Assembly (NCBI RefSeq): GCF_000003195.3
Contig: NC_012875.2
Coordinates: 13,661,405-13,725,404, forward strand
Direction of reading: 5' to 3'
Source: Sorghum bicolor
Lineage: Eukaryota > Streptophyta > Magnoliopsida > Poales > Poaceae
DNA length: 64,000 bases
In this document: piece after piece, positions 5,630 to 49,129 of the stretch
How the letters are laid out: every line of letters begins with the position of its first letter
How positions within the stretch are numbered: position 1 is the stretch's first letter
Program-made: the position numbers and the translations under genes
The notes under the pieces: model-generated
What the model was told of the DNA's origin: nothing
The model's database searches: none
The model's input: only the letters and a program-made list of their open reading frames with translations

Positions 5630-7323
5630 TAGAATTTTGAAGACCTAAACGAATTCAAATCAAAAAGTTTTTAACTACAAAGTTGTATAACTTCTCAAGA
5701 TCTACAACATTTATTTTGATCATTTCTTTATTTGACAAAGCCAAAACAAATTTATTTACAAATTTTACATCTCTCTCTTATACTACTAGAGAGATATATA
5801 AGATTTTAGAAAAATATCAGAATCACCATGTCGGATGAACATATGACAAACTAACCAAAATAAACTCTCTAGATCTTGAGAAGTTATGAAATTTTGTATT
5901 TGGCAACTTTTTTATTTGAGTTCATCATGTCATGCAAAACCACGTTTTTAATTGAAAATTTTAAATTTTGATTTTTTTAAACAACATCAGATGGAAAAAC
6001 TCTCTAAATAAACTTTGTAGATCTCAAAAAGTTATGAAACTTTGTAGTTGATAACTTTTTGTTTTGAAATCATCTTGTCATGCAAAAACTACATTTGAAT
6101 TTTTTTAAATTTGAAAATTCTTTGCCGAGTCGGTAAAGACCTTCTTTGCCGAGTGTCAAAAATAAAACACTCGGCAAAGAAAATTTCAAATCGAATTTTG
6201 AAAGCCTAAACGAATTCAAGTAGAAAAGTTTTTAACTACAAAGTTGTATAACTTCTCAAGATCTACAACATTTATTTTGATCATTTCTTTATTTGTCAAA
6301 GCCAAAACAAATTTATTTACAAATTTTACATCTCTCTCTTATAGTTTATGAAACTACAAGAGAGATATATAAGATTTTAGAAAAATATTAGAATCACCAT
6401 GTCAGATGAACATATGACAAAATAACCAAAATAAACTCTGTAGATCTCAAAATGTTATGAAACTTTGTAGTTGATAACTTTTTTATTTGAGTCCATCATG
6501 TCACGCAAAACCGCGTTTTTAATTGAAAATTATAAATTTTGATTTTTTTAAACAACCTCGGATGGAAAAACTCTCTAAATAAACTTTGTAGATCTCAAAA
6601 AGTTATGAAACTTTGTAGTTGATAACTTTTTGTTTTGAAATCATCTTGTCATGCAAAAACTACATTTGAATTTCTTAAATTTGAAAATTCTTTGCCGAGT
6701 GTTTTTCTCGGCAAAGACCTTCTTTGCCGAGTGTCAAAAATAAAACACTCGGCAAAGAAAATTTCAAATCGAATTTTGAAGCCCTAAACGAATTCAAATC
6801 AAAAAGGTTTTAACTATAAAGTTGTATAACTTCTCAAGATCTATAACATTTATTTTGATCATTTCTTTATTTGACAAAGCCAAAACAAATTTATTTACAA
6901 ATTTTACATCTCTCTCTTATACTACTAGAGAGATATATAAGACTTGAGAAAAATATTAGAATCACCATGTCGGATGAACATATGACAAAATAATCAAAAT
7001 AAACTATGTAGATCTTGAGAAGTTAAGAAATTTTGTATTTGGCAACTTTTTTATTTGAGTTCGTCTTGTCATGCAAAACCGCGTTTTTAATTGAAAATTT
7101 TAAATTTTGATTTTTTTAAACAACCTCGGATGGAAAAACTCTCTAAATAAACTTTGTAGATCTTAAGAAGTTATTAAACTTTGTAGTTGATAACTTTTTG
7201 TTTTGAAATCATCTTGTCATGCAAAACTACATTTGAATTTCTTAAATTTGAAAATTCTTTGCATGAGTGTTTTTCTCTAACAGTCGGCAAAGACCTTCTT
7301 TGCCGAGTCTCAAAAATAAAACA

Positions 7324-8475
7324 CTCGGCAAAGAAAATTTCAACTCGAATTTTGAAGGCCTAAACGAATTCAAATCAAAAAGTTTTTAACTACAAAGTAG
7401 TATAACTTCCCAAGATCTACAACATTTATTTTGATCATTTCTTTATTTGACAAAGCCAAAACAAATTTATTTACAAATTTTACTTCTCTCTCTTATAGTT
7501 TATGAAACTACAAGAGAGATATATAAGATTTTAGAAAAATATTACAATCACCATGTCGGATGAACAAATCACAAAATAACCAAAATAAACTCTGTAGATC
7601 TTGAGAAGTTATGAAATTTTGTATTTGGCAGCTTTTTTATTTGAGTTCATCTTGTAATGCAAAACCGCGTTTTTAATTGAAAATTTTAAATTTTGATTTT
7701 TTAAACAACCTCGGATGGAAAAACTCTCTAAATAAACTTTGTAGATCTCAAAAAGTTATGAAACTTTGTAGTTGATAACTTTTTATTTTGAAATCATCTT
7801 ATCATGCCAAAACTACATTTGAATTTCTTAATTTTGAAAATTCTTTTCTGAGTGTTTTTCTTTGACACTCGGCAAACACCTTCTTTGCCGAGTGTTAAAA
7901 ATAAAACACTCGGCAAAGAAAGTTTTAAATCAAAATTTAAAGCGCTAAACGAATTCAAATCAAAAAGTATTTAACTACAAAGTTGTATAACTTTTCAAGA
8001 TCTACAACATTTTCTTTGATCATTTCTTTATTTGACAAAGCCAAAATAAATTTATTTATAAATTTTACATCTCTCTGTGATACTACAAGAGAGATATATA
8101 AGATTTTAGAAAAATATTAGAATCACCATGTCGGACGAACATATGACAAAATAACCTAAATAAACTCTGTAGATCTTGAGAAGTTATGAAATTTTGTATT
8201 TGGCAACTTTTTTATTTGAGTTCATCTTGTCATGCAAAACCGCGTTTTTAATTGAAAAATTTAAATTTTGATTTTTTAAACAACCTCGGATGGAAAAACT
8301 CTCTAAATAAACTTTGTAGATCTCAAAAAGTTATGAAACTTTGTAGTTGATAACTTTTTGTTTTGATATAATCTTGTCATGCAAAAACTACATTTGAATT
8401 TCTTAAATTTGAAAATTCTTTGCCGAGTGTTTTTCTCGGCAAAGACCTTCTTTGCCGAGTGTCAAAAATAAAACA
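7324..8475. repeat. array dimer, copy 1
   Basis: Two adjacent units that look like the source or sister of the next two (8476-9631). Shared private variants are AAAGTAGTATAAC, TTACTTCTCTCTC or its one-base variant, ATTACAATCACC, GGCAAACACC, and a second-unit start reading AAAGTTTTAAATCAAAATTT. Confidence 0.65.
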
Positions 8476-9631
8476 CTCGGCAAAGAAAATTAGAAATCAA
8501 ATTTTGAAGGCCTAAACGAATTGAAATCAAAGAGTTTTTAACTACAAAGTAGTATAACTTCTCAAGATCTACAACTTTTATTTTGATCATTTCTTTATTT
8601 GACAAAGCCAAAACAAATTTATTTACAAATTATACTTCTCTCTCTTATAGTTTATGAAACTACAAGAGAGATATATAAGATCTTAGAAAAATATTACAAT
8701 CACCATATCGTATGAACATATGACAAAATAACCAAAATAAACACTGTAGATCTTGAGAAGTTATGAAATTTTGTATTTGGCAACTTTTTTATTTGAGTTC
8801 ATCTTGTCATCCAAAACTGCGTTTTTACTTGAAAATTTTAAATTTTGATTTTTTTTAAACAACCTCAGATGGAAAAACTCTCTAAATAAACTTTGTATAT
8901 CTCAAAAAGTTATGAAACTTTGTAGTTGATAACTTTTTGTTTTGAAATCATCTTGTCCTGCCAAAACTATATTTGAATTTCTTAATTTTGAAAAAAAAAT
9001 TTACGAGTGTTTTTCTTTGACACTCGGCAAACACCTTCTTTGCCGAGTGTTAAAAATAAAACACTCGACAAAGAAAGTTTTAAATCAAAATTTAAAGCCC
9101 TAAACGAATTCAAATCAAAAAATATTTAACTACAAAGTTGTATAACTTTTCAAGATCTACAACGTTTTCTTTAATCATTTCTGTATTTGACAAAGCCAAA
9201 ACAAATTTATTTATAAATTTTACATCTCTCTCGTATACTATTAGAGAGATATATAAGATTTTAGAAAAATATTAGAATCACCATGTCGGATGAACATATG
9301 ACAAAATAACCTAAATAAACTCTTTAGATCTTGAGAAGTTATGAAATTTTGTATTTGACAACTTTTTTATTTGAGTTCATCTTGTCATGCAAAAGCGCGT
9401 TTTTAATTGAAAATTTTAAATTTTGATTTTTTTAAACAACCTCGGATGGAAAAACTCTCTAAATAAACTTTGTAGATCTCAAAAAGTTATGAAACTTTGT
9501 AGTTGATAACTTTTTGTTTTGATATCATCTTGTCATGCAAAAACTACATTTGAATTTGTACAGTTTGAAAATTCTTTGCCGAGTGTTTTTGTCGGCAAAG
9601 ACCTTCTTCGCCGAGTGTCAAAAATAAAACA
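8476..9631. repeat. array dimer, copy 2
   Basis: Shares the private variants of the preceding dimer in the same order, so units 10-11 and 12-13 of the array probably arose by duplication of a two-unit block rather than of single monomers. Confidence 0.65.
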
Positions 9632-10825
9632 CTCGGCAAAGAAAATTTCAAATCAAATTTTGAAACCCTAAACGAATTCAAATCAAAAAGTTTTTAACTA
9701 CAAAGTTGTATAACTTCTCAAGATCTACAACATTTATTTTGATCATTTCTTTATTTGACAAAGCCAAAACAAATTTATTTACAAATCAAATTTATTTACA
9801 AATTTTACATCTCTCTCGTATACTACTACACAGATATATAAGATTTTAGAAAAATATTAGAATCACCATGTCGGATGAACATATGACAAAATAACCAAAA
9901 TAAACTCTGTAGATCTTGAGAAGTTATGAAATTTTGTATTTGGCAATTTTTTTATTTGAGTTCATCTTGTCATGCAAAACCGCATTTTGAATTGAAAATT
10001 TTAAATTTTGATATTTTTTAAACAACCTCGGATGGAAAAACTCTCTAAATAAACTTTGTAGTTCTCAAAAGTTAAGAAACTTTGTAGTTGATAACTTTTT
10101 ATTTTGAAATCATCTTGTCATGCAAAAACTATATTTGAATTTCTTAATTTTGAAAATTCTTTACCGAGTGTTTTTTTTAACACTTGGCAAAGACCTTCTT
10201 TGCCGAGTGTTAAAAATAACACTCGGCAAAGAACGTTTTAAATCAAAATTTGAAGCCCTAAACGAATTCAAATCAAAAAGTTTTTAACTACAAAGTTGTA
10301 TATCTTCTCCAGATCTACAACATTTATTTTGATCATTTCCTTATTTAACAAAGCCAAAACAAATTTATTTATAAATTTTACATCTCTCTATAATACTACA
10401 AGAGAGATATATAAGATTTTAGAAAAATATTAGAATCACCATGTCGGATGAATATTTGACAAAATAACCAAAATAAACTCTGTAGATCTTGAGAAGTTAT
10501 GAAATTTTGTATTTGGCAACTTTTTTATTTGAGTTCATCTTGTCATGCAAAACCGCGTTTTTAAATGAAAATTTTAAATTTTGATTTTTTTTACACAACC
10601 TCGGATGGAAAAACTCTCTAAATAAACTTTATAGATCTCAAAAAGTTATGAAACTTTGTAGTTGATAACTTTTTGTTTTGAAATCATCTTGTCATGCAAA
10701 AACTACATTTTAATTTCTTAATTTTGAAAGTTCTTTGCCGAGTGTTAAAAATAAAACACTGGGCAAAGAAAGTTTTAAATCAAAATTTGAAGCCCTAAAC
10801 GAATTCAAATCAAAAAGTTTTTAAC

Positions 10826-13749: not shown

Positions 13750-15682
13750 TTACTCAAATAGTTGTGGATACGACTTTTTCAAATCCTCTTCTCTTTCCCA
13801 GGTGGCTTCATCTTCGGTACAACGATTCCATTGTACTTTACACATTTTTATAGTTCTGCTTCTTGTAACTCTGTCTGCAGTTTCCAAGATCTTTATCGGG
13901 TACTCTTCATATGTGAGATCTTCTTTAACGGTCAACTCTTCTATAGGAATCTGCTCTTCGGGTACCCGCAAACATTTCTTCAACTGAGAAACATGGAATA
14001 CATCATGTACACCTGACAAACTCTCAGGAAGTTCTAACTGATAGGCTACTTCTCCACATCTTGCAAGAATCCTGAAAGGTCCGACGTATCTCAGTGCTAG
14101 CTTACCCTTCACATTGAATCTCTTCACACTCCTCATTGGAGATACCTTCAGATATACAAAATCACCCTCTTTGAAGCTCAAGTCACTTCTTCGGGTGTCG
14201 GCATAACTTTTCTGCCTTGACTGTGCCACTCTTAGATTGTCCCTAATCATCCTCACTTGTTCTTCAGCACTTCTTAGGACGTCTGGTCCAAACACCTGTG
14301 TCTCACTAGTTTGATTCCAGAATAAAGGTGTCCTACACTTGCGACCATACAAAGCCTCAAATGGTGCCATCTTGAGACTCTTCTGGTAACTGTTGTAATA
14401 GGAAAACACGGCATACGGCAGACTTTTGTCCCAACTAGTGCCATACTGCAGAGCACAAGCTCTAAGCATATCCTCCAAGATCTGATTAACCCTTTCTGTC
14501 TGCCCATCAGTTTGGGGATGATAAGCAGAGCTAAAGTTTAGCTTAGTTCCCAAGGATCTATGTACTTTATGCCAAAAGTGCGATGTAAACTGAGTTCCTC
14601 GGTCGGACACGATCTTCTTTGGAACTCCGTGTAAGCACACAATCCTTTCCATGTACAGCTCGGCTAACCTTGCCCCTTTGTAGTTGGTTTTGACTGGTAA
14701 GAAATGTGCAACCATAGTGAGTCGGTCTACTATTACCCAAATGGAGTCATACCCACGTTGAATACATGGCAACCCGGTAATAAAGTCCATACCGACTTCT
14801 TCCCACTTCCATTCGGGTATCTGCATTGGTTGCAACAACCCTGCAGGTCATTGGTGCTCAGCTTTCACCCTCTGACAGGTGTCACACAAAGCAACATACT
14901 CTGCTACATCCCTTTTCAATCCATACCACCAATATCTCTCCTTTAGGTCCAAATACATCTTGGTACTCCCAGGGTGTATTGAATAAGCAGAGTCATGCGC
15001 CTCACGCAGAATTGTGTCTCGGATAGCCTTCACTTCAGGCACACATATCCTTTTCCCAAACCATAGGGTACCATTCTCATCTATCCTGAAGCCTGGTGCC
15101 TTTCCAAGCACTACATTAACTACTATCTCTTTTAATTTCTCATCCTCCAACTGACTCTTATGTATCTCTTGTTCCAATGTTGGCTCTACCTCTAGACCCA
15201 TGGTATGATTCACAAAGCCTATGTTGAGGTGTTCTATTTCGGCTCGCAACTCAGCTGGAATAAATGTCAGCTGAAGTCTGTTGACATAGTTTTTCCTACT
15301 AAGTGCATCTGCAACTACATTTGCTTTCCCAGGGTGATAATGCACTTCCAGGTCGTAATCCTTGATCAACTCTAACCAACGATGTTGCCTCAGATTCAGG
15401 TCTGACTGGGTGAAGATATACTTTAGGCTCTTATGGTCTGTGTAAATATCACACTTGTGACCAATCAAGTAATGCCTCCAGATTTTTAAGGCATGGACCA
15501 CTGCGGCTAGTTCCAGATCATGAGTAGGGTAATTCAACTCATGTTTTCTCAACTGCCTAGATGCATAGGCCACTACTCTCCCTTCTTGCATGAGCACACA
15601 ACCTAAACCTAAGCGAGAAGCAACACAATAGATGGAGAAGCTCTTGCTTAAGTCAGGTAAGGTCAACACTGGAGCTGTGGTC
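13750..15682 (-). pseudogene. element A pol, 3' part: RNase H, integrase, chromodomain
   Basis: C-terminal half of Gypsy Pol, one reading frame from the element B junction (15678-15682) to a stop at 13750. In order: RNase H ([12 protein letters not shown], then [10 protein letters not shown]), integrase zinc domain (HPGSTKM ... CDTCQRVK), integrase core ([25 protein letters not shown]) and a chromodomain (about 13760-13910, with VQWNRCTEDEATWE). Oddities: RNase H reads YCVAS where element C has YCDAS, so the first catalytic Asp is Val. An in-frame UGA at 14848-14850 separates the zinc domain from the core and fits a CpG C-to-T change of an Arg codon. The frame is otherwise open for about 640 codons. 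It is nonfunctional. Confidence 0.9.
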
Positions 15683-18600
15683 TGTAACACCCTAGGTGTT
15701 AAGCATGCACTTAGTCTCACCAAAGCCATGCATAAGCATTTCCATCAAGCATAAGCATCATGAGCATGACACTCTTTTCAAATTATGATTTGATGTGCTT
15801 CATTTCATAAGTTTTAAATATGTTAAAAATGTGGTGCTTGCTTCAAAAATTGTGAAATATTCAAACTAGGTTGGTTTATGTGTAAGAAGAATTAAGAACA
15901 TTTTTGTGCAAATTTTTGGAGCTATGGAAATTGAGAAATGGAATTTATACAAAATATCCAAAATAACTTTATTTAAAAACCTAGAACTAAGTTTTAATTG
16001 GTAATTCAAATTCTATTTAGAATTTGGTCTTACCTATTAAAGCAAAGTTGTAGAGTTTTTAGTTTGGCACCACTTTGCTTTTGGGTGAAAATGGTGAAAA
16101 TGATTTGAAAATGGTCAAAATGCTTTTGGAAGAGGATTTAAGAAAAGAAAATTTAAAAAAAAAATGGAAAAGGGAAAAGGGAGCGCTAGCAGGCCGCGGC
16201 CTTGCTTCTGGCCCACTGGCCGAAGCCGGCTCGGCCCGCCCGCGCTCTCCCCTCCCCCTTCCCCGCGCTCGCGCTCGCGTCCGCGCGCGGACGGCCTCGC
16301 CGCGACGCCGTGGCGCGCCGGCAGGACTCGGCCGCCGCGTGGCGGGCATGCGGCAGCGAGGACGCGCCCCGGTCGGCCACCAAAGCGCCCCGGTCGCGCT
16401 CGCCTCCGCCCCCGCTCCCATTTGCGCCCCTCAGCTCTCTCTCTCTCGCTCTCTCGCCCTCGCCCCGCACGCGCAGAGCGCCGCCGTCGCCATTGGAGCC
16501 CGAGCTCCGCCTCGGCTGTTCCTCCCCCGTGCGTGCGCCATTCTTCAATTAGTTCTTCCCCGAGCTTCGCCCTCGCTCCGCCGTTGCGAAACGCTCATCT
16601 GAGCGCTCGGTAAGGCACGGTGAGCCCCGCTCGCCCTCGCTTTCTTCTCCGGCGAGAGCTCCGCCGCCGCACGCGTGGTCCGCGCGTCTCCATGCCTTCC
16701 GGTGCTGCGTAGTTGGCGCATCGTGTTCGCCTTGGCACCGCGATGCTCGCAAGCCCCTCCAGCCACGCTCTACCGAGCCGGCGTCCCGTACCGACGACGA
16801 GCAGCGCCGCCGCTCCGCCATGGCCGGTGGCGAGCCTGCTCCGGTCCGTTTTAGGCCGCGCAAATGGGTGCCCTAGGTCCGCCGTGAGCCGTGGAGCGTG
16901 TAGAGCCGCTTGATTCGCCGAAAGGGGTCGCCGACGGTGAGCTCCAGCTCGCCGGAGCTCCTCCCCCTCTGCGCTCTGACCAGCGGGCCCGGCTGGCAGG
17001 CGGGTCCGCTCGTCAGCGGCCGCGGGTGCACTGCACCGGGTGCACCTAGCAGGTCTCGGGGTGGATTTGAATTGTTTTCAGAAAAATAATTTCCAGGAAA
17101 TGATTTAAATGTTCAAAAATCCATATCTTGATGAATATAGCTCCAAAAATGGTGAAATAAATTTTGGTGTGTTCCTTATTTCCAGATCTATAGCCTAGTA
17201 TGATTGCATGTCATGTTTGAGTAACTTTCCTGTAAGAATATAATTAATCCATGTTTTTCCTAAACTTGGAAAATGCATAGTAAATAAAATAGGGTTCAGA
17301 AAAATGTAAAACTTGTTTTGCTGGCTCTGCATGTGTGTTTAATCACTGAGAAAATATTGTTACATATTATTTGGTGTATAAATGAATTTATGGTAATTTA
17401 AATGCTTGCATGGCAGTGCTTTATGATTTTTAATAATTAAATGGGTCATGCAATAAATCTGGAAAATTTTGTGGGTGTTTCTTATGATATTAGATAAATT
17501 GTAAAAATATGAAATCTGTTGTTTGACACTTATATCACAGTAGGGTGATTTTACTTGCCTTATTAATTAATCTTGTGATTTTTGTGGCCCAAAATAAGTA
17601 TCCAAAAATCATGAAAAATTTACAGTAGACTTTATGCTTAGCTGGTAGTCTCCTGTAATTTTTGTGGAATTTATTGATGAACATAATTGCATTTGATTTT
17701 TTTCTATGGGCTTAGAAATGAATAAAGAAAACTATGAATGGTTGTATATATAGGGTGAATGGAGTAAGTTGGGTTTGGTGTATCTTTGAAGCATCATGGA
17801 GGTTGCTGGTTGCATTTGAAAAATAATTATAGAAGAGAATGTAATAGATGTTTGATTCAATTGTTTATTCTTGGATGATGTTGACTACCTTGTAATGAAC
17901 ATGACCAGGTGTATCATCCATGCATCATGTCATGGTCCTTTGGCACTTTCTCATACAAGCATCCACTCGGGCATCTCGCACTCCACTCATGAGCATATAT
18001 GCATCATACAAGCTCGCAGGAGAACGAAGTGGGACCCGAGGAACCCGAGGAGATACAGGAGCAGGAACCTCCGGAAGCACAGGAAACCGGAGAGGAATTG
18101 CAAGAGTGTCCGGATCACCGACCCAGCACCTTTGAGAAAGGCAAGCCCCGGAGCATTCTAAGTCTCCCTATTCTCGCTAACTTATATAAAGTGTTATACC
18201 TGTTCTACTGTATTGCATATTAAGTGATAGGAGTTGCCTGATACCGTTGCTGCATATGTACTCCTTGTTATCCCTACTCGTTTATCTACCTTGTCCTATG
18301 TAGACAGGCGCGGAGTCTATGCTTAGCTTGCTTAGTCCGGTAGAAGTCGGGTGATGTCCTGTCACCTGCGAGATATAGGTGGATACCTGCTTGTTTAAGC
18401 AGTGGTTGCTTGGGGAAAGAATTAACCAAGTGTGGAATGTAATTGGAGACCGGGCAGGGTCTTATGGTGGGTTGACCATGGTGCCCCTGCCTGTGTCGAT
18501 TAAGGACCGATCGTTGACGGCCCTCTTGTCATGTTGAACGCATGCCCCACACTTAGCTGGAAGGATAAGTCGTTCCGACCGCGAAGCCTGAACACTATCC

Positions 18601-19646
18601 GGGCCGGGAATCGAGCCGCCATGCGCTGTATTGGTGGTGATTGAGGAGAACGACGAGGGCGCGGCGCGCAACCTTGCTATACCTTGGATACCTCGGTCGC
18701 CGGAACGGTCCTCGGGTACTGGCGGTGCCTGCCGAACCCGCGAATTGGTCCTGGATAGTGTAATACGGTGATCTGTAGCTCACTTGATCAGTGAGTGTGG
18801 TTTGTGTGGGGAATACCTCGCCAGCTGGTTAGAAATCGATTCGAATCGCCATCGCTCCTGGATAGTGAGCACTTGACATGAGCCCTGTCCTCGTAGTAAG
18901 GACTATGGAACACTTGGGTTATAATGATGAATAGTTTTAAGAAATGCTATGATGAGGTACTATCATAGTCTCATACTTGCTTGTAATAGTGCAGGTGCAA
19001 ACCTAGACGATAGGTAATGATACTTTCAACTTGAGCCAATTAAAAGAAGAAAGACTTATGTAGGTTATGTTAGCGAAATACTGCGGTTTTGCAAAATGGT
19101 CGTCAACTACCCCACTATATAGCCTTCATGATCCTTGATGAGTCTTTATTTTAAGTTTATGACGGGTAAGTCTAGCTGAGTACCTTCTCGTACTCAGGGT
19201 TCTATTCCCATGTTGTTTTGCAGATGGTCAAATGTACTATGGTTATTGCATCCTCTGTCTGTACCCAGCTATGGGTGATGACTAGACCAAGGGCGATGGT
19301 CACTCCGTCTCTTCTTTTGCTTTTGTGGGAATGACCGAACTATGGCACTGTATCAGACTTATCGTGTGTGTTGTAATTTCAAACTATGAAGCTTCCGCTA
19401 CTTGAAGAACTTGGTTTGTAATAACTTTAAGCACTCCGAGGTATTTTATGAATGTTGAAATCTGGATGTACTTGTGGATGGCGGCCGCTAAACTTATTAC
19501 GATCTTGGCTGTTATGCGATGTGTGGTTTGAAATCCTTCGAGATTTCACGGACTACCGGGATTATATGGGCTTAAGCGTGATGGTTCGACTATGCAAATG
19601 GTCACTATTAGGATTAATCTCTTATAATTTGGTCGGTTCTGTTACA
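15683..19646 (+). repeat. element B 5' LTR
   Basis: 3,964 bp from TGTAACACCC to GGTTCTGTTACA. A GC-rich island at about 16180-17060 includes a CT-rich stretch near 16435-16460 and donor-like GTAAGG at 16610, followed by AT-rich intron-like sequence. TATA-like motifs occur at 17745-17753 and 18183-18190. I cannot say which is used. The ORFs over the island (16059-16913) lie in five or six frames and are not credible genes. Confidence 0.95.
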
Positions 19647-19648: not shown

Positions 19649-19660
19649 TGGCATCGGAGC
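19649..19660 (+). other. element B primer-binding site (tRNA-Met-like)
   Basis: TGGCATCGGAGC lies two bases after the 5' LTR. It differs at two positions from TGGTATCAGAGC, the usual plant Gypsy site complementary to initiator tRNA-Met. Confidence 0.75.
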
Positions 19661-20467
19661 AAGGTTTAGCGAGTTACTGTTCATAAGTACGTTCTAAACA
19701 AAATCTAAACCGGTCTAATGAAGGATTTTGGTAATTAATAAGGATCAAGGTGTTAAACTAAGTTTTGGAAAATTATCTAGTGTGCCATGGTCATATCCTT
19801 TATGCCCAGTTAAGGACTCTAAGGTGGCTAGTTAAGTACTGACTTGGGGGTTAATGCATCATATTTTCATTTCGTCGCTCATACGGCGTGCAAATAGTAT
19901 GAGTGCCATTCATTTGAGTGGTAATGTATGGATCAATTCTTCCTCTACGCCATGGTAAGTGGGAGTTGTGAGAGCATGATCGGATACACTGCCGGTCTAG
20001 GGGAGTGTTGTCAGGTGCTGTGTCATGCACACATGTTGGTGTGTCTTGGGAACAGTACCGCATGCTGGGAATTCCGTCCTGAGAGGCGATGCCGTCAATA
20101 GGGCGATGATGTGGGTAGTGGCACGTCACATGCATGGACGGGTGTCTGTGTATGTGAAGTGCATGGTTTTAAATTCTTGCTCTGCATGATCATATTGTGG
20201 GTGGGCTGAAATGAGTTTTCTGCAGGTACACTAACCACGTTCTCGCTTAGAACGCTAGTTACGTTATGAGAGAACGTTGTGTGCCACCGCGTATACCGCT
20301 TAGTGTTAACTTTTGTTTTCTAAGTTTGTGAGATCGTAAGTTCGTACATGCATCATGTGCATTTCATATCATTGCTTACTTTCCCCCTTAATTTAATCTG
20401 TCCCAATTCTAAATAAAATAACTGAAGGTAATCCTCACTCTTACCCACGGTATTCCATTTGCAGCAG
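19661..20467 (+). other. element B untranslated leader
   Basis: About 800 bp between the primer site and the extra ORF with no convincing coding sequence. It ends in CCATTTGCAGCAG directly before the ATG, which resembles a splice acceptor. A donor-like CAGGTAC occurs near 20223. Confidence 0.5.
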
Positions 20468-20554
20468 ATGGCACGCACTAGGCTCACCGCTCGCAAGTCC
20501 ACTGGTGGGCGGGCCCCTCGCCGTCCGTTGGCAGCTAGGAGCTCGCGACATAAG
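20468..20554 (+). other. segment encoding the histone H3-like N-terminal tail
   Basis: Codons 1-29. In H3 numbering (Met removed), 17 of positions 1-26 are identical to H3, including ART at 1-3, the unbroken TARKSTGG at 6-13, and APR at 15-17. K9 is kept in its exact ARKST context. Positions 4, 14, 18 and 23 are Arg instead of Lys, and position 27 is His. The comparison is with the universally conserved H3 tail known from histone biology. Confidence 0.88.
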
Positions 20555-21511
20555 AGCAAGTTCCTAGAGGAGTTTGGGATGCCCACTTTGCTTTGGAGGG
20601 TGCTCAGTTCGATGGGGTATCCCGAAGGAAGGGAGCCTCGCTACTATTGGGATAAGGAGCCGCTTGGTGATGAGACCCTGGTGGGGATCGAGGCAGTTGT
20701 CCCTACCAGTGGAGGAGACCCTGCTTGGGGCGGTTGGGTGTACGAGTCCCGAGGTGTCACGCCTTTCCACGGTGCCAGCAGGGCAGCTTTCGCAGTTCTG
20801 AGGGACCTCATGGAGAGGTTTCCACAGGAGCTGGCCCACGCCTTCGCTGGGGTGTTTCCCCGGGGTGACCCTTACACTTCGGTGTGGGATCAGTCCGAGG
20901 TGAATGCTCTAGAGAGGAGTGCGGATGAGGACCAGCACAGTGACAGTGCAGCTATGAGTGCCATGTACGCATTGATGAAGACCTATGGAGGCCTGGAGCG
21001 TTGTTTGGGTCGCTTGTCCGGGTCTCTTCTCACCGTCCAGGATGAGAAGCGTCAGTTGCAGCGTGAGTTTGACTCTGAGGTTGAGAGGCTACAGGCAGAG
21101 TTGGCTCGTGTGACCAGAGAGAGAGACCAGGCAGTCCAGAAGAACAGTGAGCTGAGTCAGGACCTGCTTGCAGTGCGGGAGCAGAAGGACAGGGTGACTA
21201 CTGCTCACAGGAACTGCGAGCGCATGCTAGTCCATGTGCTTGGACAGAGGAATGAAGCCTGGCACGAGGAGGACACTTTGAGGGCCCGACAGCTGGAGCT
21301 AGAGCAGCAGCTAGCTAATGCTGAGGAGTACAATGAGAACTTGCATGAGGAGATCCACCAGCTGCATAACCAGCTCCACCCTCACCACCTGCCTGGAGCA
21401 GCTGAGCTAGACTCTGAGGACGAGATGGACGCGGATCTCGAGATAGGGGCAGCTGCTAGTGGTGATGAGGATGAGGATGGCTCTGGCATGGACAGTGATC
21501 ATAGCGACTAG
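20468..21511 (+). CDS. extra ORF with histone H3-tail mimic, coiled coil and acidic tail
   Basis: 347 codons, from the ATG at 20468 to a TAG. I chose this ATG because the product then begins MARTRLTARKSTGG, matching histone H3 from its own initiator Met; the upstream TTG would add three residues. Residues 1-29 resemble only the H3 tail, and no histone-fold sequence follows. Residues 38-118 may form a small globular domain of alpha-beta-beta-beta-alpha type, with hydrophobic helix LLWRVLSSMGY, strands around 58-92, and an Ala-rich last helix around 102-118, loosely like a double-stranded-RNA-binding domain. Residues 186-306 have strong coiled-coil character. Residues 313-347 are acidic, with about 16 Asp/Glu. 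It lies between the primer site and gag, 324 bp upstream of gag. The frame is intact. I do not recognise the family, and its function is unknown. A nuclear or chromatin role, or interference with silencing, is inference. Confidence 0.85.
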   Translation: MARTRLTARKSTGGRAPRRPLAARSSRHKSKFLEEFGMPTLLWRVLSSMGYPEGREPRYYWDKEPLGDETLVGIEAVVPTSGGDPAWGGWVYESRGVTPFHGASRAAFAVLRDLMERFPQELAHAFAGVFPRGDPYTSVWDQSEVNALERSADEDQHSDSAAMSAMYALMKTYGGLERCLGRLSGSLLTVQDEKRQLQREFDSEVERLQAELARVTRERDQAVQKNSELSQDLLAVREQKDRVTTAHRNCERMLVHVLGQRNEAWHEEDTLRARQLELEQQLANAEEYNENLHEEIHQLHNQLHPHHLPGAAELDSEDEMDADLEIGAAASGDEDEDGSGMDSDHSD

Positions 21512-21835: not shown

Positions 21836-22510
21836 ATGGTACAAACACGTGGCGGGGGTAACGGCAACCCGGGTCTTGGAGCAGGTACATCCGGAAATGG
21901 GGCTCAACGGATTGAGGACCGAGCGCCAACACCACCACCACCTCCCCCGTACACTGCGGATGTGTTTTTCGCGCAGTTTCTGGGAAGCCAACACAACATG
22001 GAGCAGATGCAGCGCAACATGGAAGAAGCTTTGCGCAACATAGCTGACAATACCCGTCGTGGGGATAATCAGGGTGGCCGGGAGGTCAACCAGTACAGTT
22101 CGTTCAAGGACTTCATGGATACCAAGCCACCAATCTTTAAGGAGGCCTTGGAACCGCTCGAAGCAGATGAGTGGATCAACACCATGGAGCAGAAGTTTCG
22201 TCTTCTCCGAATGACAGAAGAACTCAAGGCTGAATATGCGGCACATCAGTTACAAGGACCCGCTGGGATTTGGTGGTCCCATCACCGTACCACCTACCCA
22301 GAAGGGACCCCAATCACTTGGAACCGCTTCACCACCGCTTTCCGGGGAAATTACATTCCTCCTGGTGTGGTTGAAATGAAGGTTGGGGAGTTCATGAGGC
22401 TGTCCCAAGGGACGAAGTCTGTGAAGGAGTATCTATACGCTTTCAACAATCTCGCTCGCTATGCCCCTGAGTTTGTAAACACGGAGGCTAAGAAGATTGC
22501 TAGTTTCTAG
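21836..22510 (+). CDS. gag: element B gag, N-terminal part, ending in an in-frame UAG
   Basis: Gag is the structural protein that packages the RNA. The product starts MVQTRGGG, has a Gly-rich and Pro-rich N-terminus (PTPPPPPPY), and contains the Gypsy capsid region, with PLEADEWINTMEQKF and a C-terminal VKEYLYAFNNLARYAPEF, which matches the corresponding Gag regions of A and C. A second in-frame ATG lies six bases upstream (21830). I prefer 21836 because CAG-ATGG is shared with elements A and C. Translation stops at UAG 22508-22510 in the middle of the capsid region. The frame then continues openly into the zinc knuckle and Pol, so the UAG is either a recent nonsense mutation or, less likely, a read-through site. 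Confidence 0.88.
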   Translation: MVQTRGGGNGNPGLGAGTSGNGAQRIEDRAPTPPPPPPYTADVFFAQFLGSQHNMEQMQRNMEEALRNIADNTRRGDNQGGREVNQYSSFKDFMDTKPPIFKEALEPLEADEWINTMEQKFRLLRMTEELKAEYAAHQLQGPAGIWWSHHRTTYPEGTPITWNRFTTAFRGNYIPPGVVEMKVGEFMRLSQGTKSVKEYLYAFNNLARYAPEFVNTEAKKIASF

Positions 22511-25500
22511 AGAGGTTTGAATCCAAAGATGCTGAAGACCATGGGTACAGGGGCCAGGGCTACTTTCAATGCCTATATCAGCGACTGTCTGACCCAAGAG
22601 AACAATAACAACAACTACAGTGCATCCAAGTCTCGTAAGAGGGCTTTTGAAGCCGGATCATCTCAGTCCAGGGCACCAGTGGCAGGGCGACAGCAGTATC
22701 GTCCTCCTGCCCCGGGTGCTTGGTTCCGACCGCCGCAGAGAAGGAACACCGGGCATCCAACACAACAGAAGCCGTACAAGGTGGCGATAGCCCCTGCCAA
22801 GCCAAAGGCAATTCAAGCTGCAGCACCTGCCGCCAACAATGCGCCCAAGGGTCCATGTTATAACTGCCACAAGATGGGGCACTTTGCTAAGGAATGTCCC
22901 TACCCCAAGAGGCAGCAGCCAACATATCCAGCTCGTGTGCATCATACCTCGATTGAGGAAATCCCGGAAGGAGAACCGGTAACAGCTGGTATGTTTTCTG
23001 TCAACCAACATCTTGCAGTTGTTTTGTTTGATTCTGGATCGTCGCATTCTTTCATGAGTCAAGCATTTGCACAAAAGCATAATGAACCAGTTACAGATCT
23101 GGGCTATGGCTACCGCATCAGCTCAGCAGGGGCAGATGTGTTGACCAATAGAGTGGTCCGAGGGGCAACCCTGGAGATAAGTGGCCGAGTCTTTCGGGTA
23201 AATCTAGTGGTCATGCCTGGGTTAGTTTTGGATGTTATCATGGGCATGAAATGGATGAGAGAATGGGATGCGGTCATAGATACTGGAAAGAGGATGTTAT
23301 CTCTCAGAGAACCACAGGGCAGTAACTCTTTTCAAGTACCTCTGCCCCGTCGTCTTGACTTTGCTAGCATCTCCTGTGCTACGCACGTGGTCCCTTTACC
23401 ACAGATCCTAGTAGTCTGTGAGTTCCCCGATGTGTTTCCCGAGGAGTTACCAGGACTTCCCCCAGATAGGGAGGTAGAGTTTGTAATCGAGTTGATACCA
23501 GGTACAGCACCAATATCTAGAAGGCCGTACCGGATGCCACCAAACGAACTCGCAGAATTGAAGAAACAACTGAAGGAGTTACTAGAAAAAGGGTTCATCC
23601 GGCCCAGCTCGTCGGAATGGGGTTGTCCAGCGTTGTTTGTGAAAAAGAAGGATCAGTCGTTGCGCATGTGCGTGGACTATCGTCCACTCAATGCAGTGAC
23701 AATCAAAAATAAGTATCCCTTGCCAAGGATTGACATCCTGTTTGATCAGTTATCCAAGGCAAGAGTGTTCTCTAAGATAGATTTGAGATCTGGGTATCAC
23801 CAAATCAAGATTCGTCCGCAAGATATCCCAAAGACTGCTTTTTCCACCAGATATGGGTTGTACGAGTATCTTGTCATGTCCTTTGGGTTGACAAATGCTC
23901 CTGCATACTCTATGTATCTGATGAATTCAGTCTTTATGCCAGAATTGGATAAGTTTGTTGTGGTGTTTATCGATGATATTCTGGTATATTCAGAAAATGA
24001 GCAAGATCACGCCCAGCATCTGAGAATCGTGCTGACACGGTTACGAGAGCATCAGTTATATGCCAAGTTCAGCAAGTGTGAGTTCTGGTTAAAGAAAGTT
24101 CCTTTCCTCGGGCACATTCTGTCTGAAGAAGGAATTGCTGTGGATCCATCAAAAGTGCAGGAAGTCATGGACTGGAAGGCACCAACTTCGGTCTTGGAAG
24201 TTAGAAGTTTTCTTGGTCTGGCCGGGTATTATCGTCGTTTCATACCTGACTTCTCCAAGATTGCTAAGCCAATGACAAGTTTGCTACAAAAGGATCATAA
24301 GTTCGTCTGGACGGAGGGGTGTGAGTTAGCCTTCCGCACCTTGCAAAAGTTGCTAACCACTGCTCCCGTTCTGGCACAACCTAATATAGAGAAGCCTTTT
24401 GATGTGTTTTGTGACGCATCGAAGAGTGGCCTGGGGTGTGTGTTGATGCAAGATGGCAGGGTGATAGCTTATGCTTCCCGACAGTTGAGAAAGCATGAAG
24501 TCAACTATCCAACGCACGACCTTGAGTTAGCAGCAGTAGTACATGCTTTGAAGATCTGGAGACATTATCTGCTAGGAAATAAGTGTCACATTTATACCGA
24601 TCATAAGAGCTTGAAGTACATCTTCACGCAGTCCGAGCTGAATATGAGGCAACGACGGTGGTTAGAGCTAATCAAGGACTATGACCTGGAAGTTCACTAT
24701 CATCCAGGCAAGGCTAATGTAGTAGCAGATGCTCTAAGTCGTAAACCACACTGTCAAGTGGTTCAACCGTTGTTTGAAGATGGGTTCAATCTTATGCATC
24801 CCGAGGTCTTATGTCATATACAACTCAGTTGTTCACTCGAGGGTCAAGTCATTGAAGGTCAGGAAATAGACAAGGGTATTTTCCACATCAAAGAGAAGAT
24901 CAAAGATGACCCAAAGACTCAGTTTCGGGTTGATGAGAAGGGGGTACTGTGGTTCCAACAGCGGTTAGTGGTCCCAAAAGATCGAGAGTTGAAGAATCAC
25001 ATCATGGATGAAGCCCATCTCTCTAAGCTTTCTATTCATCCTGGTAGCAGCAAAATGTATCAAGATCTAAGGCCCCACTTTTGGTGGACCAAGATGAAGA
25101 AAGAAATAGCAGCTTATGTGGCCCGTTGTGACACGTGTTGCAGAGTTAAGGCCATCCATATGAAACCTGCAGGTCTGTTGCAACCGTTATCAGTTCCGGA
25201 GTGGAAATGGGAAGAGGTCAGTATGGACTTTATCACGGGTTTACCAACCACAAGGAAGGGGAATGACTCGATTTGGGTAATCATAGATCGATTGACCAAA
25301 TCGGCCCATTTCATCCCTGTGAAGACTCGTTACCGACCTCCTGAGTACGCCGATATATATATGGCTGAGATCGTCAAATTGCATGGTATTCCCAAAACTA
25401 TCATATCGGATAGAGGACCGCAGTTCACTGCTCACTTCTGGGAGCGCATGCATAAGAGCTTGGGGACCAGTCTGATAAGTAGCACGGCGTATCATCCCCA

Positions 25501-26302
25501 GACTTCAGGTCAAACCGAGAGGCTAAATCAAGTGTTAGAAGATATGCTGAGAGCCGATGTGCTATCATCCAAGGGATCATGGGAATCGTGGTTACCTTTG
25601 GCTGAATTCTCCTACAATAATAGTTATCAAGAGAGCATCAAGATGGCCCCGTTTGAAGCTTTGTATGGTCGAAGATGTCGAACTCCGTTAAACTGGGTTG
25701 AACCTGGTGAAAGAAGATACTATGGTATCGACTTTGTGAATGATGCCGAGAAAAAGGTGCAGATTATACAGCAACATATGCAAGCAGCGCAATCACGACA
25801 GAAGAGTTATGCTGATAAGAGAAGAAGGCCACTTGAATTCAACATAGGTGACTATGTGTACCTCAAGGTTACGCCAATGAAGAAAGTTCAACGTTTCCGA
25901 GTTCGAAGCAAGCTTGCACCCAGATATGTGGGACCATACCAAGTGCTAGAGAGGAAAGGCCCAGTGGCCTATAAGATTCAGTTACCTGAAGAGATGAGCT
26001 CGATCTTTCCGGTCTTCCATGTGTCGCAACTACGGAAATGTTTGAAAGTGCCTGAGCAAAGAATTGAACCCCGAGGGATCAAAATAAAAGCAGACTTAGA
26101 GTATAAAGAGCAGCCAGTGGGAATCGTGGATACCAAGGAGCGAGTAACCCGAAACAGAATTGTCAGAACATATAAGGTGGTGTGGAGTCATCATGACGAT
26201 AGGGATGCCACCTGGGAAACAGAGGATTACTTAAAAACAGTTTACCCAAAGTTTCATAAGAAATGGTTAGTAACCCAAAATCTCGGGACGAGATTTCCCT
26301 AA
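22511..26302 (+). CDS. pol: element B gag C-terminus plus pol polyprotein with chromodomain
   Basis: About 1,260 codons in the same frame as gag after the UAG. In order: zinc knuckle [14 protein letters not shown] (22856-22897); aspartic protease with LFDSGSS, DSG at 23030-23038; reverse transcriptase with FIDDIL, catalytic Asp pair at 23972-23977; RNase H with FCDAS (Asp codon 24413-24415) and [10 protein letters not shown]; integrase zinc domain (HPGSSKM ... CDTCCRVK, about 25036-25145); integrase core with Asp at MDFITGLP (25226), Asp at ISDRGPQF (25409) and Glu at GQTERLNQ (25517); and a C-terminal chromodomain at about 26099-26260 ([23 protein letters not shown]). The chromodomain keeps the central Trp but apparently not the other two aromatic cage residues of HP1, as reported for some chromovirus chromodomains. 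All visible catalytic residues are present. No start codon follows the UAG except TTG, so expression needs suppression or a gag-intact copy. Confidence 0.93.
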
Positions 26303-26314: not shown

Positions 26315-29300
26315 TGTAACACCCTAGGTGTTAAGCATGCACTTAGTCTCACCAAAGCCATGCATAAGCATTTCCATCAAGCATAAGCATCATGAGCATG
26401 ACACTCTTTTCAAATTATGATTTGATGTGCTTCATTTCATAAGTTTTAAATATGATAAAAATGTGGTGCTTGCTTCAAAAATTGTGAAATATTCAAACTA
26501 GGTTGGTTTATGTGTAAGAAGAATTAAGAACATTTTTGTGCAAATTTTTGGAGCTATGGAAATTGAGAAATGGAATTTATACAAAATATCCAAAATAACT
26601 TTATTTAAAAACCTAGAACTAAGTTTTAATTGGTAATTCAAATTCTATTTAGAATTTGGTCTTACCTATTAAAGCAAAGTTGTAGAGTTTTTAGTTTGGC
26701 ACCACTTTGCTTTTGGGTGAAAATGGTGAAAATGATTTGAAAATGGTCAAAATGCTTTTGGAAGAGGATTTAAGAAAAGAAAATTTAAAAAAAAATGGAA
26801 AAGGGAAAAGGGAGCGCTAGCAGGCCGCGGCCTCGCTTCTGGCCCACTGGCCGAAGCCGGCTCGGCCCGCCCGCGCTCTCCCCTCCCCCTTCCCCGCGCT
26901 CGCGCTCGCGTCCGCGCGCGGACGGCCTCGCCGCGACGCCGTGGCGCGCCGGCAGGACTCGGCCGCCGCGTGGCGGGCATGCGGCAGCGAGGACGCGCCC
27001 CGGTCGGCCACCAAAGCGCCCCGGTCGCGCTCGCCTCCGCCCCCGCTCCCATTTGCGCCCCTCAGCTCTCTCTCTCTCGCTCTCTCGCCCTCGCCCCGCA
27101 CGCGCAGAGCGCCGCCGTCGCCATTGGAGCCCGAGCTCCGCCTCGGCTGTTCCTCCCCCGTGCGTGCGCCATTCTTCAATTAGTTCTTCCCCGAGCTTCG
27201 CCCTCGCTCCGCCGTTGCGAAACGCTCATCTGAGCGCTCGGTAAGGCACGGTGAGCCCCGCTCGCCCTCGCTTTCTTCTCCGGCGAGAGCTCCACCGCCG
27301 CACGCGTGGTCCGCGCGTCTCCATGCCTTCCGGTGCTGCGTAGTTCGCGCATCGTGTTCGCCTTGGCACCGCGATGCTCGCAAGCCCCTCCAGCCACGCT
27401 CTACCGAGCCGGCGTCCCGTACCGACGACGAGCAGCGCCGCCGCTCCGCCATGGCCGGTGGCGAGCCTGCTCCGGTCCGTTTTAGGCCGCGCAAATGGGT
27501 GCCCTAGGTCCGCCGTGAGCCGTGGAGCGTGTAGAGCCGCTTGATTCGCCGAAAGGGGTCGCCGACGGTGAGCTCCAGCTCGCCGGAGCTCCTCCCCCTC
27601 TGCGCTCTGACCAGCGGGCCCGGCTGGCAGGCGGGTCCGCTCGTCAGCGGCCGCGGGTGCACTGCATCGGGTGCACCTAGCAGGTCTCTGGGTGGATTTG
27701 AATTGTTTTCAGAAAAATAATTTCCAGGAAATAATTTAAATGTTCAAAAATCCATATCTTGACGAATATAGCTCCAAAAATGGTGAAATAAATTTTGGTG
27801 TGTTCCTTATTTCCAGATCTATAGCCTAGTATGATTGCATGTCATGTTTGAGTAACTTTCCTGTAAGAATATAATTAATCCATGTTTTTCCTAAACTTGG
27901 AAAATGCATAGTAAATAAAATAGGGTTCAGAAAAATGTAAAACTTGTTTTGCTGGCTCTGCATGTGTGTTTAATCACTGAGAAAATATTGTTACATATTA
28001 TTTGGTGTATAAATGAATTTATGGTAATTTAAATGCTTGCATGGCAGTGCTTTATGATTTTTAATAATTAAATGGGTCATGCAATAAATCTGGAAAATTT
28101 TGTGGGTGTTTCTTATGATATTAGATAAATTGTAAAAATATGAAATCTGTTGTTTGACACTTATATCACAGTAGGGTGATTTTACTTGCCTTATTAATTA
28201 ATCTTGTGATTTTTGTGGCCCAAAATAAGTATCCAAAAATCATGAAAAATTTACAGTAGACTTTATGCTTAGCTGGTAGTCTCCTGTAATTTTTGTGGAA
28301 TTTATTGATGAACAGAATTGCATTTGATTTTTTTCTATGGGCTTAGAAATGAATAAAGAAAACTATGAATGGTTGTATATATAGGGTGAATGGAGTAAGT
28401 TGGGTTTGGTGTATCTTTGAAGCATCATGGAGGTTGCTGGTTGCATTTGAAAAATAATTATAGAAGAGAATGTAATAGATGTTTGATTCAATTGTTTATT
28501 CTTGGATGATGTTGACTACCTTGTAATGAACATGACCAGGTGTATCATCCATGCATCATGTCATGGTCCTTTGGCACTTTCTCATACAAGCATCCACTCG
28601 GGCATCTCGCACTCCACTCATGAGCATATATGCATCATACAAGCTCGCAGGAGAACGAAGTGGGACCCGAGGAACCCGAGGAGATACAGGAGCAGGAACC
28701 TCCGGAAGCACAGGAAACCGGAGAGGAATTGCAAGAGTGTCCGGATCACCGACCCAGCACCTTTGAGAAAGGCAAGCCCCGGAGCATTCTAAGTCTCCCT
28801 ATTCTCGCTAACTTATATAAAGTGTTATACCTGTTCTACTGTATTGCATATTAAGTGATAGGAGTTGCCTGATACCGTTGCTGCATATGTACTCCTTGTT
28901 ATCCCTACTCGTTTATCTACCTTGTCCTATGTAGACAGGCGCGGAGTCTATGCTTAGCTTGCTTAGTCCGGTAGAAGTCGGGTGATGTCCTGTCACCTGC
29001 GAGATATAGGTGGATACCTGCTTGTTTAAGCAGTGGTTGCTTGGGGAAAGAATTAACCAAGTGTGGAATGTAATTGGAGACCGGGCAGGGTCTTATGGTG
29101 GGTTGACCATGGTGCCCCTGCCTGTGTCGATTAAGGACCGATCGTTGACGGCCCTCTTGTCATGTTGAACGCATGCCCCACACTTAGCTGGAAGGATAAG
29201 TCGTTCCGACCGCGAAGCCTGAACACTATCCGGGCCGGGAATCGAGCCGCCATGCGCTGTATTGGTGGTGGTTGAGGAGAACGACGAGGGCGCGGCGCGC

Positions 29301-30277
29301 AACCTTGCTATACCTTGGATACCTCGGTCGCCGGAACGGTCCTCGGGTACTGGCGGTGCCTGCCGAACCCGCGAATTGGTCCTGGATAGTGTAATACGGT
29401 GATCTGTAGCTCACTTGATCAGTGAGTGTGGTTTGTGTGGGGAATACCTCGCCAGCTGGTTAGAAATCGATTCGAATCGCCATCGCTCCTGGATAGTGAG
29501 CACTTGACATGAGCCCTGTCCTCGTAGTAAGGACTATGGAACACTTGGGTTATAATGATGAATAGTTTTAAGAAATGCTATGATGAGGCACTATCATAGT
29601 CTCATACTTGCTTGTAATAGTGCAGGTGCAAGCCTAGACGACAGGTAATGATACTTTCAACTTGAGCCAATTAAAAGAAGAAAGACTTATGTAGGTTATG
29701 TTAGCGAAATACTGCGGTTTTGCAAAATGGTCGTCAGCTACCCCACTATATAGCCTTCATGATCCTTGATGAGTCTTTATTTTAAGTTTATGACGGGTAA
29801 GTCTAGCTGAGTACCTTCTCGTACTCAGGGTTCTATTCCCATGTTGTTTTGCAGATGGTCAAATGTACTATGGTTATTGCATCCTCTGTCTGTACCCAGC
29901 TATGGGTGATGACTAGACCAAGGGCGATGGTCACTCCGTCTCTTCTTTTGCTTTTGTGGGAATGACCGAACTATGGCTCTGTATCAGACTTATCGTGTGT
30001 GTTGTAATTTCAAACTATGAAGCTTCCGCTACTTGAAGAACTTGGTTTGTAATAACTTTAAGCACTCCGAGGTATTTTATGAATGTTGAAATCTGGATGT
30101 ACTTGTGGATGGCGACCGCTAAACTTATTACGATCTTGGCTGTTATGCGATGTGTGGTTTGAAATCCTTCGAGATTTCACGGACTACCGGGATTATATGG
30201 GCTTAAGTGTGATGGTTCGACTATGCAAATGGTCACTATTAGGCTTAATCTCTTATAATTTGGTCGGTTCTGTTACA
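26315..30277 (+). repeat. element B 3' LTR
   Basis: 3,963 bp, nearly identical to 15683-19646. Differences seen by eye include one base less in an A-run near 26790, T/C near 26834, G/A near 27293, G/C near 27346, C/T near 27667, and several near 29580-29630 and 30240. The GC island lies at about 26810-27690. Confidence 0.95.
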
Positions 30278-31463
30278 TGGTCAACCTCTTCTTTAACTCC
30301 TCAAAGTTAGCCTGGCATTTGTCTGACCAAACAAACTTAGCACTCTTCTCTAATAAGGTTGTCATGGGCTTAGCAAGTTTAGAGAATCCTTCAATGAATC
30401 TCCTATAATATCCGGCCAATCCCAGAAAGCTACGAATTTCACTCACATTGGTCGGGGGTTTCCAATTCAACACATCTTGCACCTTGCTGGGGTCCACGGC
30501 TACCCCTCCATTAGAGACCAAGTGTCCCAGAAAGGAGACCTCCTTTAGCCAAAACTCACACTTGCTTCTTTTGGCATATAGCTTATGTTCTCTAAGCTTT
30601 TGCAAGACTAGCCTCAGATGCTCTGCATGTTCCTCTTTAGTTTTGGAAAAGATGAGTATATCATCAATGAACACCACTACAAACTTATCCAAGAACTCCA
30701 TGAACATCTTGTTCATGAGGTACATGAAGTATGCGGGCGCATTGGTCAGCCCGAAAGATATAACTGTGTACTCATACAGGCCATACCTAGTAGTGAAGGC
30801 TGTCTTAGGTACATCCGAGGCACGGATTTTCAGTTGGTGATAACCGGATCGAAGGTCTATTTTTGAGAACACACAAGCACCTTTTAACTGATCAAACAGG
30901 TCATCAATTCTAGGAAAAGGGTACTTGTTTTTGATGGTTACTTCATTTAGTGACCGGTAATCCACACACATTTTCCTGGTACCATCTTTCTTATCGACAA
31001 AGATAACGGGTGCTCCCCAAGGTGATGAACTAGGACGAATAAAACCCTTCTCTAGCAACTCCTTAATTTGCTTCTTAAGTTCCTCTAGTTCATTCGCTCC
31101 CATTCTATAAGGTCTTTTAGCTATAGGTGCAGTTCCAGGTAAAAGTTCAATAAGGAATTCGATGTCTCGGTCAGGTGGCATACCTGGCAATTCATCAGGG
31201 AACACATCAGGGAAGTCATCCACCACTCGGTTCTCCTCGTTGACCTCATTAGTCAACTGGTTCACGGTAGCAGTTGGAGGTGCTTGCACTGCCACTTCTA
31301 CATAAATTCTATCTCCTTTAGGTGATGTTACTACCACAGACTTCTCTGGCACTGAATCACTGCCCGATGTTGCTTCATCGAATCCATCCCCAGGATAAGG
31401 TCAATACCAGAAGTTCTTAGCACAATGGGGTTTACTTTGAACTCTACCCCCCTTAGAGAAACA
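30278..31463 (-). pseudogene. element A pol, 5' part: protease end and reverse transcriptase
   Basis: Minus-strand continuation of element A Pol on the other side of element B. The reverse transcriptase includes [20 protein letters not shown], a FIDDIL catalytic motif (Asp pair at 30660-30665), and [11 protein letters not shown]. It runs open from about 31352 to the target duplication at 30278-30282, where B interrupts it. Upstream, the protease C-terminus ([10 protein letters not shown]) lies in another frame, so at least one more single-base shift separates it from the RT frame near 31350. No credible internal start exists; this is a broken part of a Gag-Pol frame. Confidence 0.88.
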
Positions 31464-44157: not shown

Positions 44158-44172
44158 AACTCCCCCAAGCTT
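44158..44172 (-). other. element D1 polypurine tract
   Basis: Minus strand AAGCTTGGGGGAGTT next to the 3' LTR, identical to the D2 tract. Confidence 0.85.
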
Positions 44173-48969: not shown

Positions 48970-49103
48970 ACATTCCCCTGCATAAGATAAAAATAGAAAA
49001 ATATCGGGGTAAAACTGTATGAGAGAATAGATAAGCTCAATCATATTAGTGATGTGAATGATGACTCGAAAATCTATATCCATTCCTGATTAGTAATCAA
49101 CCT

Positions 49104-49121
49104 TCCCCGGCAACGGCGCCA
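49104..49121 (-). other. element D1 primer-binding site (tRNA-Asp)
   Basis: On the plus strand TCCCCGGCAACGGCGCCA, identical to the 3' end of plant tRNA-Asp(GUC) as I know it; the minus strand is the complementary primer site, eight bases from the 5' LTR. Confidence 0.9.
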
Positions 49122-49129
49122 AAAATGCT

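Follow-up and report, generated by a model that had tools for sequence, protein, structure and literature searches.

The window analyzed here is a 64,000-nucleotide stretch of Sorghum bicolor DNA (NCBI RefSeq assembly GCF_000003195.3, contig NC_012875.2, positions 13,661,405 to 13,725,404 of the forward strand). It contains a long terminal repeat (LTR) retrotransposon with an extra open reading frame (ORF) whose product begins with a likeness of the N-terminal tail of histone H3. The extra ORF is on the sense strand of the element, after the 5' LTR and before gag. The element encodes gag, protease, reverse transcriptase, RNase H, and integrase in gypsy order inside LTRs with a 5-bp target site duplication. 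It is a Ty3/gypsy chromovirus, probably of the Tekay clade, the clade name being taken from structure and literature. The two LTRs were 99.5% identical (19 mismatches and 1 gap in a self-comparison of the window). In this copy, which is otherwise young, one in-frame stop at 22508-22510 lies between gag and pol. The features, in window coordinates, are as follows.

15678-15682, no strand: left target site duplication TGGTC, repeated directly after the 3' LTR
15683-19646, plus strand: 5' LTR of about 3.96 kb, starting TGTAACACCC and ending GTTACA, from self-comparison and its ends
19649-19660, plus strand: likely primer binding site TGGCATCGGAGC, which we take to be of the initiator-tRNA-Met type
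20458-20467, plus strand: putative 3' splice site, tandem TTTGCAG and CAG, abutting the ATG
20468-21511, plus strand: extra ORF (5' aORF/ORF0), 347 amino acids and a TAG stop at 21509-21511
20468-20539, plus strand: histone H3 tail-like segment, Met and the residues aligned to H3 1-23
20579-20818, plus strand: double-stranded-RNA-binding-domain (dsRBD)-like fold in the predicted structure, residues 38-117
20948-21376, plus strand: long, coiled-coil-like helix in the predicted structure, residues 161-303
21377-21508, plus strand: acidic C-terminus, residues 304-347, with 16 D/E and 0 K/R
21836-22510, plus strand: gag frame, ended in this copy by the in-frame stop; a putative acceptor, TATGCAG, abuts its ATG
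22517-26302, plus strand: pol, with protease, reverse transcriptase, RNase H, integrase, and a degenerate chromodomain-like stretch
26315-30277, plus strand: 3' LTR
30278-30282, no strand: right target site duplication TGGTC

The translation of 20468-20554 is MARTRLTARKSTGGRAPRRPLAARSSRHK. After the Met, 17 of 26 residues equal histone H3, and TARKSTGG is unbroken. The preliminary description had proposed an H3 tail mimic in register from the initiator Met, and this was borne out. The 29 tail residues were searched with phmmer against 177,635 distinct PDB sequences and gave 133 matches, the best with an E value of 8.5e-7. The best 60 of the 133 were all H3 or H3-type chains. The reverse search, full histone H3 against the whole sorghum genome, gave 34 matches, and the weakest (E = 8.8e-4) was a copy of the retrotransposon ORF (C1:40206616). 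Because E values were significant in both directions, chance resemblance is ruled out, as the preliminary description had argued. It had also claimed that no histone fold follows the tail. No histone was found among the 11 Pfam families matched by the ORF at an E value of <=1, and its predicted structure consists of the dsRBD-like part and the long helix. The extra-ORF protein carries an H3 tail in register and is not a histone.

The tail was probably derived from an H3 gene. In three intron-bearing sorghum H3 genes, L101, L102, and L104, coding exon 1 spans ATG to ACC AAG, with GT after K23. L103 shares this exon boundary, with its start broken. As in the element, the ATG of L101 directly follows the acceptor tgcag. 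Among the 11 long-form proteins described below, identity to H3 was found in 8 at position 21, 1 at position 22, none at position 23 (R in 9), 1 at position 24, none at position 25, 9 at position 26, and none at positions 27-30. The sorghum copy L108 retains Q19 and T22 and reads ARTRLTARKSTGGRAPRHQLATR, as would be expected if some lineages had remained closer to H3. Against host H3 genes, 3-9 codons were identical at the 14-18 shared residues, and nucleotide identity was 40-50 of 69. A recoding test against these genes gave p values of 0.009-0.61, with 9 of 28 nonindependent comparisons below 0.05 before correction. Recent DNA-level capture from a present sorghum H3 gene is unsupported by these values. 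The modest codon agreement implies that capture, if it happened, was old and that the residues outlasted most of the synonymous likeness.

Relatives were retrieved by three protein searches, which returned 42, 308, and 49 proteins. The second used a short-family query, and 120 of its 308 proteins were examined. Nearly all relatives came from metagenome-type sources, and one from the first search came from Miscanthus; we infer that they belong to grass elements. Two scans for relatives in viral contigs gave 0 confirmed cases. Gene calling or contig ends have truncated many of the proteins, and an absent N-terminus is therefore uninformative. A tail, defined as 9 or more H3 identities in 26, was present in 57 of 185 proteins, the window copy included. 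Eleven of these have the long architecture; the other 46 form a short family whose tail runs straight into the coiled coil. Near-perfect tails are carried by P0171 and P0177, which start MARTKQTARKSTGGRAPRRQLA and share 19 of the first 21 H3 residues, the differences being K14R and K18R. By phmmer, P0177 matched PDB H3 chains with an E value of 1.4e-6, and the short protein P0033 did so with an E value of 3.2e-4.

The 57 tails keep the H3 lysines very unevenly. K9 is present in 56 and K4 in 53 (7 of 11 long and 46 of 46 short). K14 is present in 1, and K18, K23, and K27 are present in 0. A basic residue, K or R, stands at position 14 in 56, at position 23 in 44, at position 18 in 5, and at position 27 in 2. 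The best-kept positions further include A1, T6, A7, S10, P16, and L20. Among the 55 nonindependent pairs of long forms, tail residues 1-21 were more alike than the remainder in 49, less alike in 4, and tied in 2. Between P0177 and the window protein, identity is 86% over tail residues 1-21 and 44% over the rest.

The extra ORF is abundant in the sorghum genome (709 Mb), with 3,355 candidates, of which 117 were scored. The sorghum set contained 86 stretches, of which 53 were distinct ORFs, 8 of these carrying an internal stop, and 33 were N-terminal stretches. Across the first 120 bases the set had 49 distinct sequences. K9 and R14 were each present in 84 of 86, R23 in all 86, and R or H at position 18 in 85. 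In the 53 distinct ORFs, ranked by likeness to the query, the ratio of nonsynonymous to synonymous polymorphism (pN/pS) was 0.10 for the dsRBD-like part, 0.17 for the linker, 0.10 for the coil, 0.12 for the acidic part, and 0 for a 7-residue hinge. It was 0.23 for the tail (95% interval, 0.02-1.26), owing largely to an R/H site at codon 19. Nonsynonymous and synonymous changes were also compared between singleton and shared classes. They numbered 126:92 against 17:73 over the whole ORF (p = 3.3e-10). The difference was significant for the dsRBD-like part (p = 0.0024), the coil (p = 8.6e-6), and the acidic part (p = 4.7e-4), and it was not significant for the linker (p = 0.60). For the tail on the 86 stretches it was 21:15 against 7:9 (p = 0.38), with a p value of 1 in both subsets.

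To avoid N-terminal bias, 39 additional sorghum copies were picked by hand from 150 scored, matched mainly through the C-terminal coil. The tail was present with at least 14 of 26 identities in 34 of the 39. Among these 34, L098 has its first residues replaced, L064, L077, and L089 have a changed start codon, and L069 has a stop at residue 27. In the other 5 (L063, L067, L073, L084, and L090), the tail is disrupted by a frameshift, truncated, or missing from the stretch examined. Distinct tail changes in 33 coil-picked copies were 30 nonsynonymous and 20 synonymous, or 0.47-0.66 of the neutral expectation, by CpG weight. A tail confined to the window copy is ruled out by the 34 copies together with the diverged relatives. 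The preliminary description had named loss of the tail in other copies as the case against it, and on this point it held up. It had also proposed a test for purifying selection on the tail. The comparison between families points to constraint, and the evidence there is stronger than inside sorghum, where the tests on the tail alone did not reach significance.

One sorghum copy, L061 (G000:C4:27027800-27029300), has lost the greater part of the dsRBD-like region and a large share of the coil, with the frame intact. The tail and C-terminus remain. Its architecture resembles that of the short family among the metagenome proteins. It was the one candidate for a sorghum member of that family and looks rather like an internally shortened copy of the long family.

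Behind the tail, residues 38-117 are predicted to form the alpha-beta-beta-beta-alpha arrangement of a dsRBD. The Pfam matches of the ORF and its relatives were mainly weak and of coiled-coil type, with none over the cutoff for the window protein.

Upstream of the extra ORF, the leader from the LTR contains 24 ATGs, so the unspliced RNA would make a poor message. TTTGCAGCAG abuts the extra-ORF ATG and may be a tandem 3' splice site. The AG pair upstream of the ATG would fit a spliced mRNA carrying the tail. TTCCATTTGCAGCAG was unchanged in 54 of 60 sorghum loci compared (58 places). Together with TATGCAG at the gag ATG, these putative acceptors suggest that the extra ORF and gag may both be reached by alternative splicing. 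The tandem GCAGCAG at 20458-20467 would be an NAGNAG-type acceptor and could yield two leaders with the protein unchanged.

We propose that an H3.3-type first coding exon was captured and retained as a working H3 module of a nuclear retrotransposon protein, most likely one that weakens silencing. We put the probability of this reading at about 0.5. A tail that keeps K9 and swaps other acetylatable lysines suggests that the protein deals with the plant silencing machinery through imitation of chromatin. Removal of the Met would expose A1-R2-T3...T6-A7-R8-K9-S10 as in H3. The arginines at 14 and 23 would retain the basic contacts for histone-type nuclear import and could not be acetylated. In the nucleus, K9 may be a substrate of the H3K9 silencing machinery or, once methylated, its ligand; candidates are SUVH methyltransferases, chromomethylases, and other H3K9me readers. 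The tail would then be a functional histone mimic, a target of the host's enzymes or readers of H3. Because the coiled coil may make the protein oligomeric, many tails could be displayed at once. The dsRBD-like domain, which may be of the kind that binds Dicer or DRB partners, could engage the small-RNA arm. The net output would most likely be a decoy that blunts silencing of the element, the nearest alternative being chromatin docking. A more specific version is tentative, and we think it doubtful in full. It is a two-armed silencing antagonist in grass chromoviruses, in which a refined H3.3 exon and a Dicer/DRB-binding dsRBD would titrate the small-RNA arm as well as the H3K9 methylation loop. 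Its tail would be constitutively imported, keep K9, drop K14, K18, K23, and K27, and be displayed on an oligomer.

Several observations weigh against the proposal. Position 4 is R in all 86 sorghum stretches, so that K4 is lost in the sorghum family. Purifying selection on the tail alone was not significant within sorghum by pN/pS or by the singleton-versus-shared test, and the ranking of the 53 ORFs by query likeness lowers pN. The 57 tail-bearing proteins were selected by an H3-identity threshold and are not independent. Since 46 of them form one short family, the loss of K14, K18, and K23 may go back to a small number of ancestral changes. Because K9 is itself open to acetylation, the tail has few acetylation sites but is not free of them. 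The acceptor does not adjoin the ATG in L102 and L104, and only 1 of 3 intron-bearing H3 genes matches the element in this respect. The exon-boundary match is only suggestive, because likeness in the strict sense stops at 21, and agreement recurs at R26, past the boundary. No dsRBD profile was among the 11 Pfam families matched at an E value of <=1 by the window protein, none was among the matched families listed for 26 relatives (25 of 98), and Foldseek gave no match to the dsRBD-like part at an E value of <=0.001. The motif KKxAK at the start of helix 2 holds the canonical RNA-binding residues of dsRBDs. When its positions were aligned by hand across 33 sequences, K or R stood at its three lysine positions in 7, 0, and 1; the column following the third has K or R in 25. 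The dsRBDs of plant DRB7.2/DRB4 and DCL4 are 14-15% identical to this part, and the positions aligned with KKxAK are mostly nonbasic.

The basic tail could also persist merely as a nuclear localization signal, carried by karyopherins of the Kap123/importin-4 kind, with K9 and the other H3 residues as passengers. This is unlikely as the whole explanation, and it is the rival that we take most seriously. The tail has basic residues at 14 and 23, as the H3-type import signal does. According to PMC5677370, K14 and K23 are the H3 lysines that matter most in the Kap123 structure; import is only slightly affected by K14R and is not lowered by K9Q or K18Q. The division between 14/23 and 18/27 in the 57 tails matches the H3 import signal, including its tolerance of K14R. 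Products of grass Tekay extra ORFs are also predicted to be nuclear in the grasses covered by PMC11728184. However, import as described has no need of K9, which is kept in 56 of 57, and A1, T6, A7, S10, P16, and L20 are likewise among the best-kept positions. Import leaves K9 unexplained, and this points to a further role that depends on the K9 epitope. A docking tail is less probable still. There the H3 module would tether the protein, and by way of the coiled coil the preintegration complex, to chromatin readers at heterochromatin or to the element's own integrase chromodomain, and so steer integration instead of blocking silencing. The pol of this chromovirus does end in a chromodomain-like stretch at the integrase C-terminus. 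It matched Pfam Chromo with an E value of 0.0072 (16.7 bits, under the cutoff of 25.1), and by phmmer it matched 2m2l, a solved chain named only as uncharacterized, at 7.7e-5 and Clr4 at 0.0081. The stretch has His at the place aligned to a Clr4 Tyr that we take to be cage-forming, and a K9-methylated tail is then no obvious ligand. In plant type II chromodomains the first cage aromatic is missing, and usually the third as well (PMC3350952 and PMC6317226). The element's own chromodomain is therefore a poor candidate reader of the tail.

Two further explanations concern the origin of the tail. It may be a decaying relic of capture, in which an H3 exon with its splice site and ATG was taken by chance, serves only as start codon and leader, and resembles H3 because it is recent. 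The nonsignificant selection tests within sorghum fit a relic, and the uncorrected p values below 0.05 in 9 of 28 codon comparisons leave room for some remaining DNA likeness. Even so we consider it very unlikely, since most synonymous likeness to host H3 is lost and the residues persist, K9 outlives other lysines, and P0177 and the window protein agree far better in the tail than in the rest. Convergence, in which an unrelated basic leader was selected to resemble an H3 epitope and nothing was captured, is the least probable of all and would be surprising. DNA likeness to H3 genes is indeed little over the recoded expectation. Convergence would have to account for 19 of 21 identities in register from the Met in P0171 and P0177, for the exon-like boundary, and for the shared acceptor position in one of the three intron-bearing H3 genes.

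Partial similarity to the histone H3 gene was reportedly noted for some extra ORFs of grass chromoviruses by Steinbauerova et al. (2011, in Genetica). The preliminary description had been aware of no published protein like this one from plant retrotransposons, which is correct only in part. The extra ORF itself is already known. PMC11728184 describes the extra ORF of Tekay elements in sorghum and maize and reports for it a weak structural match of DRBM type. Extra ORFs of grass Tekay/Retrosat2-type chromoviruses (Sb7, Sorsat2, and maize Tekay) share the pre-gag position, long LTRs, and long C-terminal helix with the one described here, a likeness of kind (PMC11728184 and PMC3485330). The word "histone" is absent from both papers and from the extra-ORF review PMC7264820. 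No retrotransposon H3 tail was described in the titles and abstract openings of the open-license PMC papers that the literature searches returned. We believe the following to be new: K9 kept with the other acetylatable lysines replaced, basic residues at 14 and 23, near-perfect tails in relatives, and the exon-like boundary. We also believe that the firmer dsRBD-like assignment beside the tail, drawn from the predicted structure, and a testable mechanism are new.

Some known histone mimics are methylated on a K9-like lysine, and their motifs are short and internal or C-terminal. The viral and cellular mimics (influenza NS1, SARS-CoV-2 ORF8 with ARKS, and G9a) likewise copy a short modifiable part of the H3 tail. 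In contrast, the likeness here covers 21-23 residues, stands at a true N-terminus, has a probable H3 gene origin, and lies in a retrotransposon. Histone mimicry by SARS-CoV-2 ORF8 is disputed (PMC10833455).

Vandal DNA transposons encode anti-silencing proteins, which we take to be those named VANC. These are likewise extra proteins encoded by a transposon that shield the element; the likeness is one of role, in a different element class (PMC11728184). Plant retrotransposon extra proteins have no agreed function so far. A K9-keeping tail beside a domain of the Dicer/DRB type offers a cheap and decisive test of whether LTR retrotransposons fight heterochromatin by histone imitation. If true, histone mimicry would extend from viruses to abundant plant mobile elements, and a natural lysine-poor H3 tail could be used as a tool.

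A 149-codon open frame within both LTRs (16164-16613 and 26795-27244) is probably noncoding. Adjoining the 5' LTR, 13750-15729 on the minus strand contains open frames that by reading alone resemble the RNase H-integrase of another gypsy-type element. In the self-comparison, 1-10746 and 37537-39792 are long tandem, satellite-like arrays with a unit of about 0.57 kb, about 89-95% alike. The stretches 42910-50785 and 56147-63995 are inverted copies with 94% identity across 7.9 kb. A direct repeat, 42506-44157 and 49128-50784, is 97% identical and LTR-like.
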